Below are positions 20,856 through 26,378 of a stretch of 39,332 bases of DNA, piece by piece. Position 1 is the stretch's first letter; the number at the start of each line of letters is the position of its first letter. This DNA is from a virus. Location: the IMG/VR virus record IMGVR_UViG_3300027739_000001, positions 1 to 39,332 of that record. One strand, given 5' to 3'. Below the pieces are notes generated by a model. The model had not been told where the DNA came from. It saw only the letters and a list, made by a program, of their open reading frames with translations, and did no database searches. Position numbers and translations under genes: made by a program.

Positions 20856-22115
20856 ATGGATAAAGAAACTCTTAAAAAACTTGTTGACGATCACGCATCT
20901 ACCGTATCTCGGTTCAATACTCAAAAAGCATACTTCAACGGTACACACGTGGCAATCAATCAACCTGCTCCTAAATCATCACCTGATAACAGGGTATCGG
21001 TTCCTTTTGCCCGTAGAGCCGTGGCCATGATCAAGGGTTACATGAGCAAGCCCGGGTCAATCAAGTACACCGGGGATTTTTACGAGAACACCTTAAAAGA
21101 GATCTATGAATACAATGACGAACAATTAACCACGTCAAATGAGTTGGAAGATGCTTTGATTTATGGTCGGTGCTTTGAACTCCATTGGATGGGTGAAAAT
21201 GGAATGAAGAACTTTTACCCAATCCCGGCGAGTCAATCAATCCCAATTTACAATAGCGAATTGAGACCTAAACTAATCGGCTTCATTTGGGTTAGAACTG
21301 TGGACGGTGTACAGACTGCCACTGTCTACGATGACACGTATTATCAGGTATGGACTTTTGATAAGGACTGGACACAAGGTGATGAACTACCCCACGGATA
21401 CGGTAAAGTGCCTGTCAATATCGGTATGATTGACCGAGATGGAAGAAACTTTTTTGACCATGTTCTCGGTCTAATTGACCTTTATGACAAACTAATATCA
21501 GAGGATCTCGGGAACGAATTGCAACGCCATTCAAATGCCATCCTAGCCATGGCTGAAAGACTTGACACCGAGACCGCCGATGATAATGGGCGTACAATGG
21601 TTGAAAGAATGAAAGAACTAGGTTTGATTGACGGCTTAGGCGATGGGGATGTAAAGTCAAAACTTGCTTATATTACCAAAGATCAACCTAGTGACTTTAT
21701 ATCATTCTCAGCTCAAACGATTGAGCGTCTAATTTATGAGATGCTAATGATCGTCAATCCAAATGACGATACCTTTGCCGGATCTTCCGGTATCGCTCAA
21801 GCCTGGAAAACATTTGGAATGGAGCTTGCGTGTTCATCCATTGAAGCGTACTTTCTCCGGTTCCTTTACAACCGTATCTACATGATTGGTGGAATATCTG
21901 AGAGTGTAGGAGATGACACTGAAGGAACAACCGAAGTGCAAATATCAATGAGTCGGAATACTCCGGTAAACCTAGTCGAGCTTGCAGATATTGCATCTAA
22001 GCTAAAGGGACTGATAAGCGATGATTCCTTGATCGGTCTTTTCCCGGTCGAGGTTGTAGCAGATAAAGAACAAGAGCTTGAGAGACTTGGATCCGGGATG
22101 GAGCTTGAGGGATGA
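20856..22115 (+). CDS. Portal protein (SPP1 Gp6-like)
   Basis: 419 residues. The pattern of an SPP1-type portal is visible: an N-terminal clip/wing region (NRVSVPFARRAVAMIKGYMSKPG), the YGRCFELHWMGENG strand, a central GYGKVPVN and a later crown helix region (ERLIYEMLMIVNPNDDTFAGSSGIAQAW). The dodecameric portal forms the DNA channel at one capsid vertex and docks the terminase. No ribosome-binding site lies before the ATG, unlike neighbours. The end overlaps the MuF gene by an ATGA overlap. Confidence 0.85.
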   Translation: MDKETLKKLVDDHASTVSRFNTQKAYFNGTHVAINQPAPKSSPDNRVSVPFARRAVAMIKGYMSKPGSIKYTGDFYENTLKEIYEYNDEQLTTSNELEDALIYGRCFELHWMGENGMKNFYPIPASQSIPIYNSELRPKLIGFIWVRTVDGVQTATVYDDTYYQVWTFDKDWTQGDELPHGYGKVPVNIGMIDRDGRNFFDHVLGLIDLYDKLISEDLGNELQRHSNAILAMAERLDTETADDNGRTMVERMKELGLIDGLGDGDVKSKLAYITKDQPSDFISFSAQTIERLIYEMLMIVNPNDDTFAGSSGIAQAWKTFGMELACSSIEAYFLRFLYNRIYMIGGISESVGDDTEGTTEVQISMSRNTPVNLVELADIASKLKGLISDDSLIGLFPVEVVADKEQELERLGSGMELEG

Positions 22116-23860
22116 CCTTTGAGCAGTACCTAGCCGGGGGAAGAAAAGCTGCCGATAGGGATTTAATCAGCGTTGAAAAAGAACTTCAAGCCATGTACAT
22201 TGACGCCTATAAACAAGCATCGAGTGACCTTGAAAAGTTTTTAGCTAAAGGCTTTTCACCTGAGGAAGTCCGAAAGTATGGCAGATTAACTCAGCTTATC
22301 GAAGGGATAAAAAAGGAATACAAAAAGCTATCAGGTAAAGCACTTGATACAACCTTGACCGCTGGAGCTGATACATTTATCGAGTCCTTTAAGTACCTTG
22401 AGTTTGCCCTAGATGCCACTGAGGGAGTAGCCGTAGGTTTTGGAATGCCCCCTGTGGACGTGGTTAGACTCTCAGTCAACTCAGACCATGCCGGGCTATC
22501 GGTAGAAGAAATATACGGGAAAAATGTTATCTCTGAGTTTAGTAAGATCCAGGGAACTATTACCCGGGGTATTATCCAAGGCCAAGGATATAAAAAGATG
22601 GCAGGATTACTCAAGGATGATTTCGCCGGAGGATATAAAAACGCTCTACGGGTGATTAGAACAGAGAACACTAGGCTATGGACTGAAGGACAGCTTGAGT
22701 CAATCGCCTACGGTGAGGATCTCGGGATCAAGTTTCGTACTCGGTGGATTGCTTCACTTGACCAAAGGACAAGGGAATCACACGCAATGCTTGACGGTGA
22801 ATACGCCGATGAGAATGGATTATTCTGGATTGGTAGTGACTCAGCTAAAGGGCCGGGGTTATTCGGTATCGCCTCCGAGGATATAAACTGCTTCCCTGGT
22901 CACATGATCCCGGTAGCAGTTGATATTGAAAAACTTTACAAAAGAGAATATTCGGGAAACTTAATCGGGATTAAAACATCCTTCGGCAGTTATTTTGAAG
23001 TTACGGTTAATCACCCTATACTTACCGACAAAGGATGGGTTCCCTCTGGCATCCTTAATAAAGGAAGCAATATAATCTCCATGAGCCTGGGTAAGAAACC
23101 TGGAATAGGTTGCAAGATAAAGAACGGTCCATCCACGTTCGCAGAGGTATATAATCTTTCTTCTATCAAAAGCTCTATCCATAATGTTCATGGAACCGTT
23201 ATACAATTCCACGGCGATGGGTCCAATGGAGAAGTCGAGATTAAAACGGTCGATAGGTGTCTGCCTGTCAAGAACAATTCCAGCATTCTTCACAAATTGA
23301 AACAGTTCATCTTCACCGCTCCCAACATATTGCATAGTTTTTTTTCTAGTAATAGCCCTAGCAACAAGTTCATCCTTTTCTCTGGTCATCCCTCTAACAG
23401 CATCATGCGCAGCCTTAGAAAGAGCTTGTCTTTCCTCGGGAGTAGATTTGGCCATCCTAGCGAACATCCCCTCGCTTCTATTCCTTTGAGTAATTCCATT
23501 ATTTCTCAAGATTCTAACAATAACAGATCTACTGACATTAAATCTGGAAGCAATAGACTTAACGGACTCCCCATCGGTGTATTCTTTGATGAAGTGGTCG
23601 ATATTCAAATCAAACCCTATTCTGGACATGTGTACAACCTCCAAACCTCAAGCGGTATGTATGGATTATATAACAACAATGGCATTGTGTCAATTACTCA
23701 TAACTGCCGTTGTGCAATCACTCAAGAGGTTGAAGGGTTCCCGGCTGAGGAACGTAGGATCAAGGGTGAAGGTGTGGTCAAGTATACCAATTTCACCGAT
23801 TGGGCTGAATCTAAAGGGTGGACACCCGAGAAAGGCTGGCCGAAAGTTGAAAAAGTTTGA
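22112..23860 (+). CDS. MuF-like head morphogenesis protein containing an intein
   Basis: 582 residues in one open frame. Residues 1-259 and 532-582 make a SPP1 gp7/MuF-like minor head protein: RVIRTENTRLWTEGQ, then TRWIASLDQRTRESHAMLDGE, then the joined EDIN/CRCAITQEV, a conserved C-terminal motif. Residues 260-531 interrupt this motif exactly before its Cys and have intein features (separate entry). The spliced protein would have 310 residues. MuF proteins bind the portal and enter the procapsid. The start overlaps the portal stop. The middle of the frame (about 23080-23600) encodes Ser/Asn-rich sequence because its antisense strand carries another gene. Confidence 0.88.
   Translation: MTFEQYLAGGRKAADRDLISVEKELQAMYIDAYKQASSDLEKFLAKGFSPEEVRKYGRLTQLIEGIKKEYKKLSGKALDTTLTAGADTFIESFKYLEFALDATEGVAVGFGMPPVDVVRLSVNSDHAGLSVEEIYGKNVISEFSKIQGTITRGIIQGQGYKKMAGLLKDDFAGGYKNALRVIRTENTRLWTEGQLESIAYGEDLGIKFRTRWIASLDQRTRESHAMLDGEYADENGLFWIGSDSAKGPGLFGIASEDINCFPGHMIPVAVDIEKLYKREYSGNLIGIKTSFGSYFEVTVNHPILTDKGWVPSGILNKGSNIISMSLGKKPGIGCKIKNGPSTFAEVYNLSSIKSSIHNVHGTVIQFHGDGSNGEVEIKTVDRCLPVKNNSSILHKLKQFIFTAPNILHSFFSSNSPSNKFILFSGHPSNSIMRSLRKSLSFLGSRFGHPSEHPLASIPLSNSIISQDSNNNRSTDIKSGSNRLNGLPIGVFFDEVVDIQIKPYSGHVYNLQTSSGMYGLYNNNGIVSITHNCRCAITQEVEGFPAEERRIKGEGVVKYTNFTDWAESKGWTPEKGWPKVEKV
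22889..23704 (+). mobile_element. Intein in the MuF gene
   Basis: 272 residues starting at Cys260 (CFPGHM, block A) after extein Asn259. Block B is TVNHPIL (about 38-44 of the intein) in GSYFEVTVNHPILTDKGWV. Block F-like is GHVYNLQTSSG, and block G ends SITHN before extein Cys532 (His-Asn-Cys). All residues for standard splicing are present. There is no LAGLIDADG or HNH domain in the sense frame; the linker between the splicing halves is the complement of an antisense gene. Insertion at the conserved NC of MuF is a functionally critical site, as is usual for inteins. Confidence 0.88.
22961..23629 (-). CDS. Homing-endonuclease-like gene antisense to the intein
   Basis: 222 residues from ATG 23629, which has GGAGG eight bases upstream. 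A helix-turn-helix lies at about 21-46 (ESVKSIASRFNVSRSVIVRIL), followed by a charged linker. A Vsr-like/EDxHD-type nuclease domain follows: GEDELF (Glu106, Glu108), RFNLDFSIGPIAVEL (Asp132, Glu141), then YLCERGWTVLYL. The usual His of the motif is not evident. This nuclease class is known beside split inteins. It is the only leftward gene inside the rightward structural operon and lies wholly within the intein. I infer that it cuts intein-less MuF alleles to spread the intein. Confidence 0.8.
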   Translation of the reverse strand: MSRIGFDLNIDHFIKEYTDGESVKSIASRFNVSRSVIVRILRNNGITQRNRSEGMFARMAKSTPEERQALSKAAHDAVRGMTREKDELVARAITRKKTMQYVGSGEDELFQFVKNAGIVLDRQTPIDRFNLDFSIGPIAVELYNGSMNIMDRAFDRRKIIYLCERGWTVLYLATYSRFLTQAHGDYIASFIKDARGNPSFVGKYRVINRNFKITAEGCFNPD

Positions 23861-23885
23861 CATAATAGTAAAAATCATATATACT
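23857..23885 (+). promoter_or_regulatory. Promoter for GIY-YIG gene
   Basis: TTGACA (23857-23862) overlapping the MuF stop, 17-bp spacer, TATACT (23880-23885). Transcription would start about 23892, at the first base of a leader with predicted pairing. Confidence 0.75.
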
Positions 23886-23890
23886 AATTT

Positions 23891-23968
23891 TAGTGACTAG
23901 AAGGCATTCGAAAAGCGACTATCCATCGCCTGTCACTAACTTATGGATACCATCGGGAGGTGGCTCAA
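23891..23968 (+). promoter_or_regulatory. Structured leader with possible pseudoknot
   Basis: TAGTGAC (23891-23897) pairs with GTCACTA (23932-23938). Inside, GCGA/TCGC (23915-23918, 23926-23929) closes a loop whose TATCCAT (23920-23926) is complementary to ATGGATA (23943-23949), just before GGGAGG of the next gene. This is an H-type pseudoknot layout that could control translation. Confidence 0.5.
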
Positions 23969-24205
23969 ATGAAAACAGCAATAATCTATATGTATACTTC
24001 TCCAAGCGGAAAATCTTATATCGGACAAACGTGGAACGAAGAACGAAGGAAAAAAGAGCATAATAAACATTATTCATCTACAATATTTCACTCTATAAAT
24101 GACGCCACTATCTTCTATTCAATCAATAGAAATCAGATAAGAGAGAATATTGTTAATTGTAAAAAGTTAAAAAGAGACTTGCAATTTTCTTATCTAAAAA
24201 AATAA
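23969..24205 (+). CDS. GIY-YIG family protein, short, free-standing
   Basis: 78 residues from ATG 23969 behind GGGAGG. The N-terminus KTAIIYMYTSPSGKSYIGQTWNEERRKKEH matches the GIY-YIG nuclease core (Y...G...YIG, then the conserved Arg). The rest is short and basic, and a C-terminal DNA-binding domain is missing. It may be a minimal or decaying homing endonuclease. Both flanking genes are intact, so it is free-standing and not in an intron. It has its own promoter and structured leader, and lies immediately after the intein-bearing gene. Confidence 0.7.
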   Translation: MKTAIIYMYTSPSGKSYIGQTWNEERRKKEHNKHYSSTIFHSINDATIFYSINRNQIRENIVNCKKLKRDLQFSYLKK

Positions 24206-24930: not shown

Positions 24931-25938
24931 ATGGCCGAAACTCGTATCGCAAACGTAATTGTTCCTTCAGTGTTCACAGGGTATGCCCTTGAACCTTCTA
25001 TCTATAAATCTAGATTCTGGCGTTCCGGTGTTATCACCGAGAATCCAGCAATCTCCGCTCTCTTGGCTGGTGGTGGTACTACCTTCAACCTTCCTTTCTG
25101 GAAAGATACCGTTGGAACATCCGGTGATATTCCTTCCGAAACTGTGGCCACAACTGTAAACAATGCCACAAGCGGAAAACAAGTCGCAAGACGTCAGCTC
25201 CGGGAAAAAGCATGGGGTGCAAATGATATCTCTGCTATTTTCGCAGGTGAAGATCCCATGGGAGCATTGGCCGCTCGAGTGTCCGATTATTGGGCGCAAG
25301 CTTACGACCTCAACTCTATCGCTACTCTCCGTGGCGTGATCGCTGATAATATCGCCAACGATGCTTCTAGCCTTGTGAACGATATCTCCGGTGGTGCAGG
25401 TGCAGCCGCTATCATCTCTAATTCTGCCGTGATCGATGCTCAGGGTAAACTTGGAGAGAATGGAACCGTGGCAGCCAATGACCTGAATAACGGTGGTTTC
25501 GCCGCTATCTTGGTTCACCCTGCTACTTATCAGGTTCTTCGGAAAGCCGATTTGATCGACTTTGTGAAGCTCTCTGAGCAAGAACTCCCCGTGGAGACTT
25601 ACATGGGAATGCGAGTGATTGTAAACCGGAATGCTTATGTCAACGGTGCAATCTATGACTCTTATATTCTGAAACAGGGCGCACTTCAGTTCGGTCAGTC
25701 TAACGTAGGTTATGAACCAACTGAATTGTATCGTAACCCAGGAGTTGGTTTCGGTATCGACTCTCTGTACACCCGCCGGGTATTTGCAATGCACCCTCTC
25801 GGAACTGAATGGACTGAGAACACTGTGACCGATGGTATCAGCCCTTCCGATGCTAACTTGGTACTTGCTGCCAACTGGAACCGGACCTTTGAGACTGAGA
25901 ACATGGGTATCGTGGTAGTCCGTCACAAGATCGCCTAA
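24931..25938 (+). CDS. Major capsid protein
   Basis: 335 residues, HK97-fold coat-protein type. Typical pieces are the N-terminal arm leading to SRFWRSGVI, the LPFWKDTVGTSGDIPSE strand, the KQVARRQLREKAWGANDI segment and the P-loop-like stretch GFAAILVHPATYQVLRKADLIDF. The end region is NRTFETENMGIVVVRHKIA. Codon choice is biased to C/G-ending codons compared with neighbours, as expected of a highly expressed gene; that bias also opens a long false ORF on the other strand. GGAG precedes the ATG. A terminator-like hairpin follows. Confidence 0.88.
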   Translation: MAETRIANVIVPSVFTGYALEPSIYKSRFWRSGVITENPAISALLAGGGTTFNLPFWKDTVGTSGDIPSETVATTVNNATSGKQVARRQLREKAWGANDISAIFAGEDPMGALAARVSDYWAQAYDLNSIATLRGVIADNIANDASSLVNDISGGAGAAAIISNSAVIDAQGKLGENGTVAANDLNNGGFAAILVHPATYQVLRKADLIDFVKLSEQELPVETYMGMRVIVNRNAYVNGAIYDSYILKQGALQFGQSNVGYEPTELYRNPGVGFGIDSLYTRRVFAMHPLGTEWTENTVTDGISPSDANLVLAANWNRTFETENMGIVVVRHKIA

Positions 25939-25944
25939 ATAATA

Positions 25945-25972
25945 ACCCCGGTTTAATCGCCGGGGTCTTTTT
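25945..25972 (+). terminator. Terminator-like hairpin after capsid gene
   Basis: ACCCCGG (25945-25951), 8-base loop, CCGGGGT (25960-25966), then CTTTTT. It probably reduces read-through so that capsid mRNA exceeds downstream mRNA. Confidence 0.75.
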
Positions 25973-25985
25973 ACAGGAGTAAAAA

Positions 25986-26378
25986 ATGCCAAGCAGAACA
26001 AGAGCCGGGGATGTAACCCCAAATCAGCAATTGAACGAATTAAACCAGTATTCTCCATTTATCCTCAGGTTTCCCGTTACCGTGGATAGTAGTACCGCTA
26101 AGGTCGCCTTTATCGCTCCATTTCCTATGCAGATTTTGGACGTGATGGTACTTGCTCAGGCTACTTCCGGTGGTGGTACAATCACTCCACGAAAGGGAGC
26201 CGATGCGATGTGTACCGCTATTGCGTGTGCTACTGACGGAGCCATGGCAAGGATGTCTGCCGGGGCCGTGGTAGCTAATGCCGCACGTTTAATCCTTGCA
26301 AAAGGTGACACCGTGAACATCATAGCCGCCGGGGCAGCCGACAGGGGAATCGTAACTTTCTTGGGTGTTAGGGTATGA
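25986..26378 (+). CDS. Putative capsid decoration or head protein
   Basis: 130 residues, rich in Ala, Gly and Val, with beta-type segments (FILRFPVTVDSSTAKVAFIAPF, QILDVMVLAQATSGGGTIT, LAKGDTVNIIAAGAADRGIVTF). Position right after the capsid gene and the compact beta composition suit a decoration or stabilisation protein on the shell. No specific family is recognised. CAGGAG precedes the ATG and the stop overlaps the next start (ATGA). Confidence 0.55.
   Translation: MPSRTRAGDVTPNQQLNELNQYSPFILRFPVTVDSSTAKVAFIAPFPMQILDVMVLAQATSGGGTITPRKGADAMCTAIACATDGAMARMSAGAVVANAARLILAKGDTVNIIAAGAADRGIVTFLGVRV

Follow-up and report, generated by a model that had tools for sequence, protein, structure and literature searches.

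An intein in a phage MuF head gene with a homing-endonuclease-like gene on the opposite strand

The stretch of DNA analysed here (the window) comes from IMG/VR and is a virus contig of 39.3 kb. Structural genes lie on its plus strand and replication genes on its minus strand. One plus-strand gene encodes the precursor of a MuF-like minor head protein; it is preceded by terminase and portal genes and followed by scaffold and major capsid genes. Pfam Phage_Mu_F matches residues 145-260 of the ORF (E 5.9e-12), and PHROG assigns it to the minor head proteins. The reading frame contains a putative intein, and a second gene runs antisense within it. The features of the region are as follows.

22112..23860, plus strand: MuF-like minor head protein precursor, 582 aa (Pfam Phage_Mu_F, PHROG minor head proteins)
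22889..23704, plus strand: putative intein, 272 aa, Cys1 to His-Asn (sequence, Intein_splicing in relatives, Hint fold, exact 816-bp absence in a relative)
22994..23035, plus strand: intein block B (FEVTVNHPILTDKG), with T39 and H42 invariant, facing the conserved nuclease tail GKYRVIN
23605..23658, plus strand: intein block F region (..IQIKPYSGHVYNLQTSSG), whose complement carries the Shine-Dalgarno sequence and start codon of the nuclease
22961..23629, minus strand: antisense homing-endonuclease-like gene, 222 aa, HTH and PD-(D/E)xK/EDxHD nuclease (profile, Foldseek, AlphaFold, Pfam)
23636..23642, minus strand: Shine-Dalgarno GGAGGTT, 6 nt before the ATG (sequence; conserved across the family)
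23665..23693, minus strand: sigma-70 consensus TTGACA-N17-TATAAT, 12/12, directed towards the nuclease (sequence; family enrichment against synonymous recoding)

Directly after the MuF gene, a short ORF (23960-24205, plus strand) has a partial GIY-YIG match and may be left over from another homing endonuclease. It is preceded by a promoter-like site (23857-23885, 11/12).

The intein comprises exactly 272 codons. Its first residue, Cys, follows ...EDIN, and its last residues, ...ITHN, precede the CRC motif of MuF, the Cys of which provides the +1 position. Cys1, TVNH (TxNH), His-Asn and Cys+1 are residues of the class-1 type, and C1, G23, T39, H42, G49 and N272 are invariant in an alignment of 66 relatives. 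The Pfam Intein_splicing score of the window copy alone falls under the gathering score (E 7e-5), and the same family matches 78 of 79 aligned relatives. The AlphaFold model, computed with the 66 relatives, shows a Hint fold formed by residues 1-66 and 230-272, with pLDDT mostly >90, and its Foldseek matches are solved inteins. The centre of the intein has low pLDDT (about 40-60 over residues 121-210), and Pfam and profile searches found no endonuclease match in this part of the sense frame. A sense-strand endonuclease was rejected on this basis. A first-pass annotation had described a 272-residue intein at an Asn-Cys of the MuF frame without an endonuclease in its sense-strand centre. Boundaries that are exact to the base, the splice-site residues, the Hint assignment and the absence of a match in the poorly modelled centre all agree with that description. 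Judged from sequence and model, the region 22889-23704 is a class-1-type intein. Splicing itself is inferred, and excision is predicted to leave a 310-aa MuF product.

The minus-strand ORF begins with ATG, ends with TAA and contains 222 codons; an alternative in-frame TTG is located at 23644. AlphaFold models all 222 residues with a pLDDT of 94.5, as an N-terminal helical HTH region (HTH at residues 10-43) and an alpha/beta nuclease. In a search of the PDB, a profile of 88 relatives matched 3hrl, an endonuclease-like protein (E 1e-7), and 3r3p, I-Bth0305I (E 8e-6). The match to Vsr (1cw0) was weak (E 0.02). The sole credible Foldseek match of the model was the catalytic domain of I-Bth0305I, 3r3p (probability 1.0). 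Pfam MTES_1575 is found in 53 of the 88 relatives, and the domain is of the EDxHD/DUF559 type. The catalytic E106, D132 and E141 are invariant in the 88 aligned members, while the His-Asp part of I-Bth0305I was not aligned residue by residue. The gene is thus complete as first annotated, with 222 residues, HTH, start, ribosome-binding site and stop, and the nuclease fold is supported by both profile and structure. The term 'Vsr-like' used at that stage holds only in a broad sense, as the EDxHD enzyme I-Bth0305I, and not Vsr itself, is the nearest solved structure. The nuclease is unannotated in nearly all phage records that we inspected, including those of cultured phages.

With tblastn, 128 phage records were found to carry the nuclease. 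Viral-contig scans yielded 188 and 56 relatives, and only the best of these were fetched. The 156 loci that we compared were almost all obtained through nuclease queries. The sense and antisense genes share one codon register exactly, with every antisense codon complementary to a single sense codon. In this register, 153 of the 156 loci keep a stop-free sense frame opposite the nuclease; the other two sense frames contain 2-47 stops. In all 18 intein-bearing loci inspected (the window and 17 from the 128 phage records or from IMG/VR), the nuclease lies opposite a MuF-like gene. A nuclease-blind scan, in which the query consisted only of the intein C-terminal block and the CRC motif, yielded 79 scorable loci. 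The antisense nuclease is present in 78 of these, and the remaining locus is truncated by a contig end. A genome scan with alignment subset A2 used one narrow pattern and returned one locus (a MAG contig); the frequency in prophages cannot be inferred from it. The two-strand design, which had been proposed from a single sequence, therefore recurs in phage genomes, and the antisense ORF is conserved across the family. An assembly error was rejected, since the arrangement is repeated in more than 150 loci and in cultured phage genomes. A split intein in a fractured gene was also rejected, the sense frame being unbroken.

The open sense frame is missing in three loci. In L106 both strands are frame-broken, and the locus was excluded as a case of sequencing error or decay. 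In L012 (Acinetobacter phage BUCT629, 2324-3217) and L023 (about 635-1303), the nuclease gene is free-standing and is the convergent neighbour of an intact, intein-free MuF gene. The strand opposite these nucleases contains 12 and 15 sense stops, respectively. The two free-standing genes branch at separate places among the embedded ones in the nuclease tree; L023 adjoins the window with a support of 0.91, and the grouping of L012 is weaker. Judged from this tree, departure of the nuclease from the intein, or of the intein from the nuclease, seems to have happened more than once.

Further variation was observed within the family. Escherichia phage KMB36 (L018, 1883-3874) carries an intein with an antisense nuclease elsewhere in MuF (TSTT before CRARDG); as read from these loci, the two-strand design is present at two or more sites of MuF. 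In L052 and L111, the sense ORFs contain the end of an apparent second intein upstream in the same MuF protein. In Rhodococcus phage REQ3 (L021, 2072-3850), the antisense nuclease is shorter and lacks the HTH, and the intein, which starts after HPN, apparently begins with Ala rather than Cys.

Long antisense ORFs in the same register can arise from codon bias alone. In the window, a 363-aa ORF (24967-26058, minus strand) opposite the major capsid gene is longer than the nuclease ORF. It has no Pfam or family match, only weak partial ones, and is probably a product of codon bias. The length of an antisense ORF is therefore not in itself evidence for a nuclease, and the ORF described here could be the mirror image of a real, conserved sense gene whose codon pattern leaves the other strand open. 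The substitution pattern argues against this. Every one of 44 distinct pairs (10,052 codons in all) has its substitution maximum within the overlap at antisense position 3, equivalent to sense position 1. The period is reversed in the flanks that code on the sense strand only, where the maximum falls on sense position 3. Amino-acid identity in the overlap is 63% for the antisense and 51% for the sense frame. Together with the matches to families and folds, which occur on the antisense side only, the free-standing homologues with sense stops opposite and the contrast in pLDDT between nuclease and sense centre, this led us to reject mirror conservation, which retains no more than a negligible chance. 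Purifying selection, as read from the substitution period, acts on the nuclease frame in all 44 pairs.

The sense gene in turn leaves a mark on the nuclease. Among 120 embedded nucleases left after dereplication, which contain 4027 Leu and Ser codons (2126 and 1901, respectively), TTA, CTA and TCA do not occur, while 570 are expected from the codon usage of the same loci. Their absence is explained by the stops that they would place in the sense frame. Block B (TPNHPxLT) faces the conserved C-terminal YRVI strand of the nuclease. The codon opposite the catalytic His of block B is GTG in 74 and ATG in 17 of 91 sequences, and that opposite the Asn of the block is ATT or GTT in 90 of 91. The sense motif FHGDG (residues 107-111 of the window intein) is also highly conserved. 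It is the exact complement of the catalytic IAVE/VAVE motif of the nuclease, so that its conservation can be explained without a function in the sense protein.

The C-terminal part of the intein appears to contain the start signals of the nuclease. The sigma-70 consensus lies 36 bases upstream of the nuclease ATG, between block F and the intein end, and the region contains 12 promoter-like sites against 4.5 in shuffles. Over 108 loci, the promoter score upstream of the nuclease exceeds that of synonymously recoded sequence (mean 6.9 versus 2.1). The nominal p of 1e-13 is overstated, as the loci are related and the score is simple. In block F (HVYNLQT), which lies opposite the Shine-Dalgarno sequence and start codon, Leu is encoded by CTC in 63 of 77 cases (about 24% expected) and His by CAT in 64 of 73 (about 39% expected). 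In relatives, the GII-HN codons of block G are a frequent location of the -10 hexamer, and the second Ile there is ATA in 28 of 55 (about 16% expected). By these counts, codon choice in the C-terminal part of the intein favours the nuclease start signals across the family. This suggests that the intein provides the nuclease with its own promoter; there are no transcription data, and the consensus fits sigma-70 hosts, the host of the contig being unknown. Since the replication genes are on the minus strand, the nuclease shares their strand. The perfect consensus and this location strengthen the earlier proposal of nuclease expression that does not depend on late head-gene transcription, although expression itself is inferred.

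Six loci (L089, L114, L152, L153, L154 and L157) have a stop within the nuclease, and in all of them the sense frame is open across the region. This fits a situation in which the head gene alone is essential, so that the nuclease may decay and the head gene may not, and it is consistent with nuclease decay in a homing cycle. The same stops could indicate a relic, in which the intein splices but the nuclease is unexpressed or inactive in most phages, and antisense coding persists without present function, its decay slowed by the long coding overlap. Most nucleases are, however, intact and retain their start signals, the catalytic residues show no exception in the alignment, and the nuclease frame is under purifying selection in all pairs. 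We consider a relic very unlikely.

Comparisons between phages indicate mobility of the element. In Escherichia phage Snoke and Salmonella phage LSPA1, the overlap is 97.5% identical (2.5% difference), whereas the MuF flanks are 79-90% identical (10-21% difference). Klebsiella phages P12620-1 and RCIP0015 differ by 2.3% in the overlap and by 21-36% in the MuF regions. MuF genes of fEg-Eco19 and other Kagunavirus phages lack exactly 816 bp at the homologous site; these intein-free relatives are close to Snoke, with MuF identity of up to 94%. Insertion is precise as far as these alignments show, the host gene without the element being intact. We infer a homing pattern from the distribution and divergence of the intein, and recombination without the nuclease is not excluded.

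It is possible that the nuclease is real but serves defence or competition, with the intein as a safe site and no role in homing. Its cleavage target is unknown, the MTES_1575 and DUF559 families contain proteins of unknown function, and L012 and L023 persist beside MuF genes without an intein. On the other hand, the best structural match is a homing endonuclease, the gene is always found with an intein in MuF or directly beside MuF among the examined loci, and the divergence pattern of intein and extein speaks against it. We regard this explanation as unlikely.

We consider it highly probable that the locus is a mobile intein with its splicing and homing functions encoded on opposite strands. 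On the sense strand, the Hint domain would excise itself from MuF after translation and join ...EDIN to CRC. On the antisense strand, a separate HTH nuclease would be made, with a promoter and a ribosome site of its own located within the intein. It would recognise and cut intein-free MuF genes near the Asn-Cys codons, and repair off the intein-bearing copy would insert the whole element. As the codons of the two genes are exact complements, the nuclease would be free to vary within two limits: an open sense frame and the retention of blocks A, B, F and G. Both frames and their register, the selection on the nuclease frame, the open sense frame, the conserved antisense start signals, the exact empty sites and an intein that diverges less than its host gene are read from the sequences. 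Splicing, cleavage of empty sites, transcription from the antisense promoter and early expression are only inferred.

The homing endonuclease of an intein is usually part of the spliced polypeptide; in split inteins, its gene lies in the gap. Work by Dassa et al. from 2009, which PMC10448857 cites, reportedly described split inteins in fractured phage genes, with a nuclease gene in the gap. The MuF intein resembles these in combining a phage gene, an intein and a separate Vsr-related/EDxHD nuclease gene. While in split inteins host gene and intein are broken in two, the MuF precursor has one continuous frame with the nuclease gene antisense within it.

Inteins with in-frame homing endonuclease domains, such as the LAGLIDADG VMA inteins (PMC8966425), likewise combine Hint with an endonuclease between the N- and C-terminal splicing blocks. 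They are one polypeptide, whereas the MuF-intein nuclease is a separate protein encoded on the opposite strand, in overlap with blocks B and F. Antisense homing endonuclease genes are known from group I introns of nuclear rDNA (PMC9548176), where the gene is antisense to both element and host gene and the enzyme has its own expression. Unlike the MuF intein, these are RNA introns in eukaryotic rRNA genes with His-Cys box enzymes, and there is no coding overlap with a protein frame. An out-of-frame HNH insertion in a phage methylase (PMC11855218) also hides a nuclease in another frame and keeps the host gene open, but it is an HNH on the same strand, and no splicing domain was found. I-Bth0305I (PDB 3r3p), an EDxHD homing endonuclease, shares its catalytic fold with the antisense nuclease. 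Its PDB annotation as a mobile intron protein makes it intron-associated, while the MuF nuclease is encoded antisense within an intein and carries an HTH at its N terminus.

The MuF intein of Snoke and LSPA1 was reported by the authors of PMC6776784 and is a member of the two-strand family. The antisense nuclease is absent from the record annotation and from the text of that paper. A limited literature search found no antisense endonuclease within an intein; it did not cover a preprint on non-canonical actinophage inteins (10.1101/2025.01.02.630785), which may include the Gordonia members. New here is that a minus-strand sigma-70 promoter, a Shine-Dalgarno sequence and a start codon all lie inside the C-terminal part of an intein. 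We lean towards regarding the family as a distinct and widespread homing element, with codon-for-codon coding on two strands, C-terminal blocks that double as promoter, ribosome site and start, and an early enzyme convergent with a late head gene.

The family represents overprinting, in which one stretch of DNA encodes two proteins from two strands, each with its own job. It is a natural system for the evolution and maintenance of antisense overlapping genes, and occurs in phages of Salmonella, Escherichia, Klebsiella, Pseudomonas, Vibrio, Gordonia and others. Carriers of the unannotated nuclease include cultured phages and are open to early experiment. Two-strand inteins would also offer a clean means to examine the uncoupling of homing from protein splicing.
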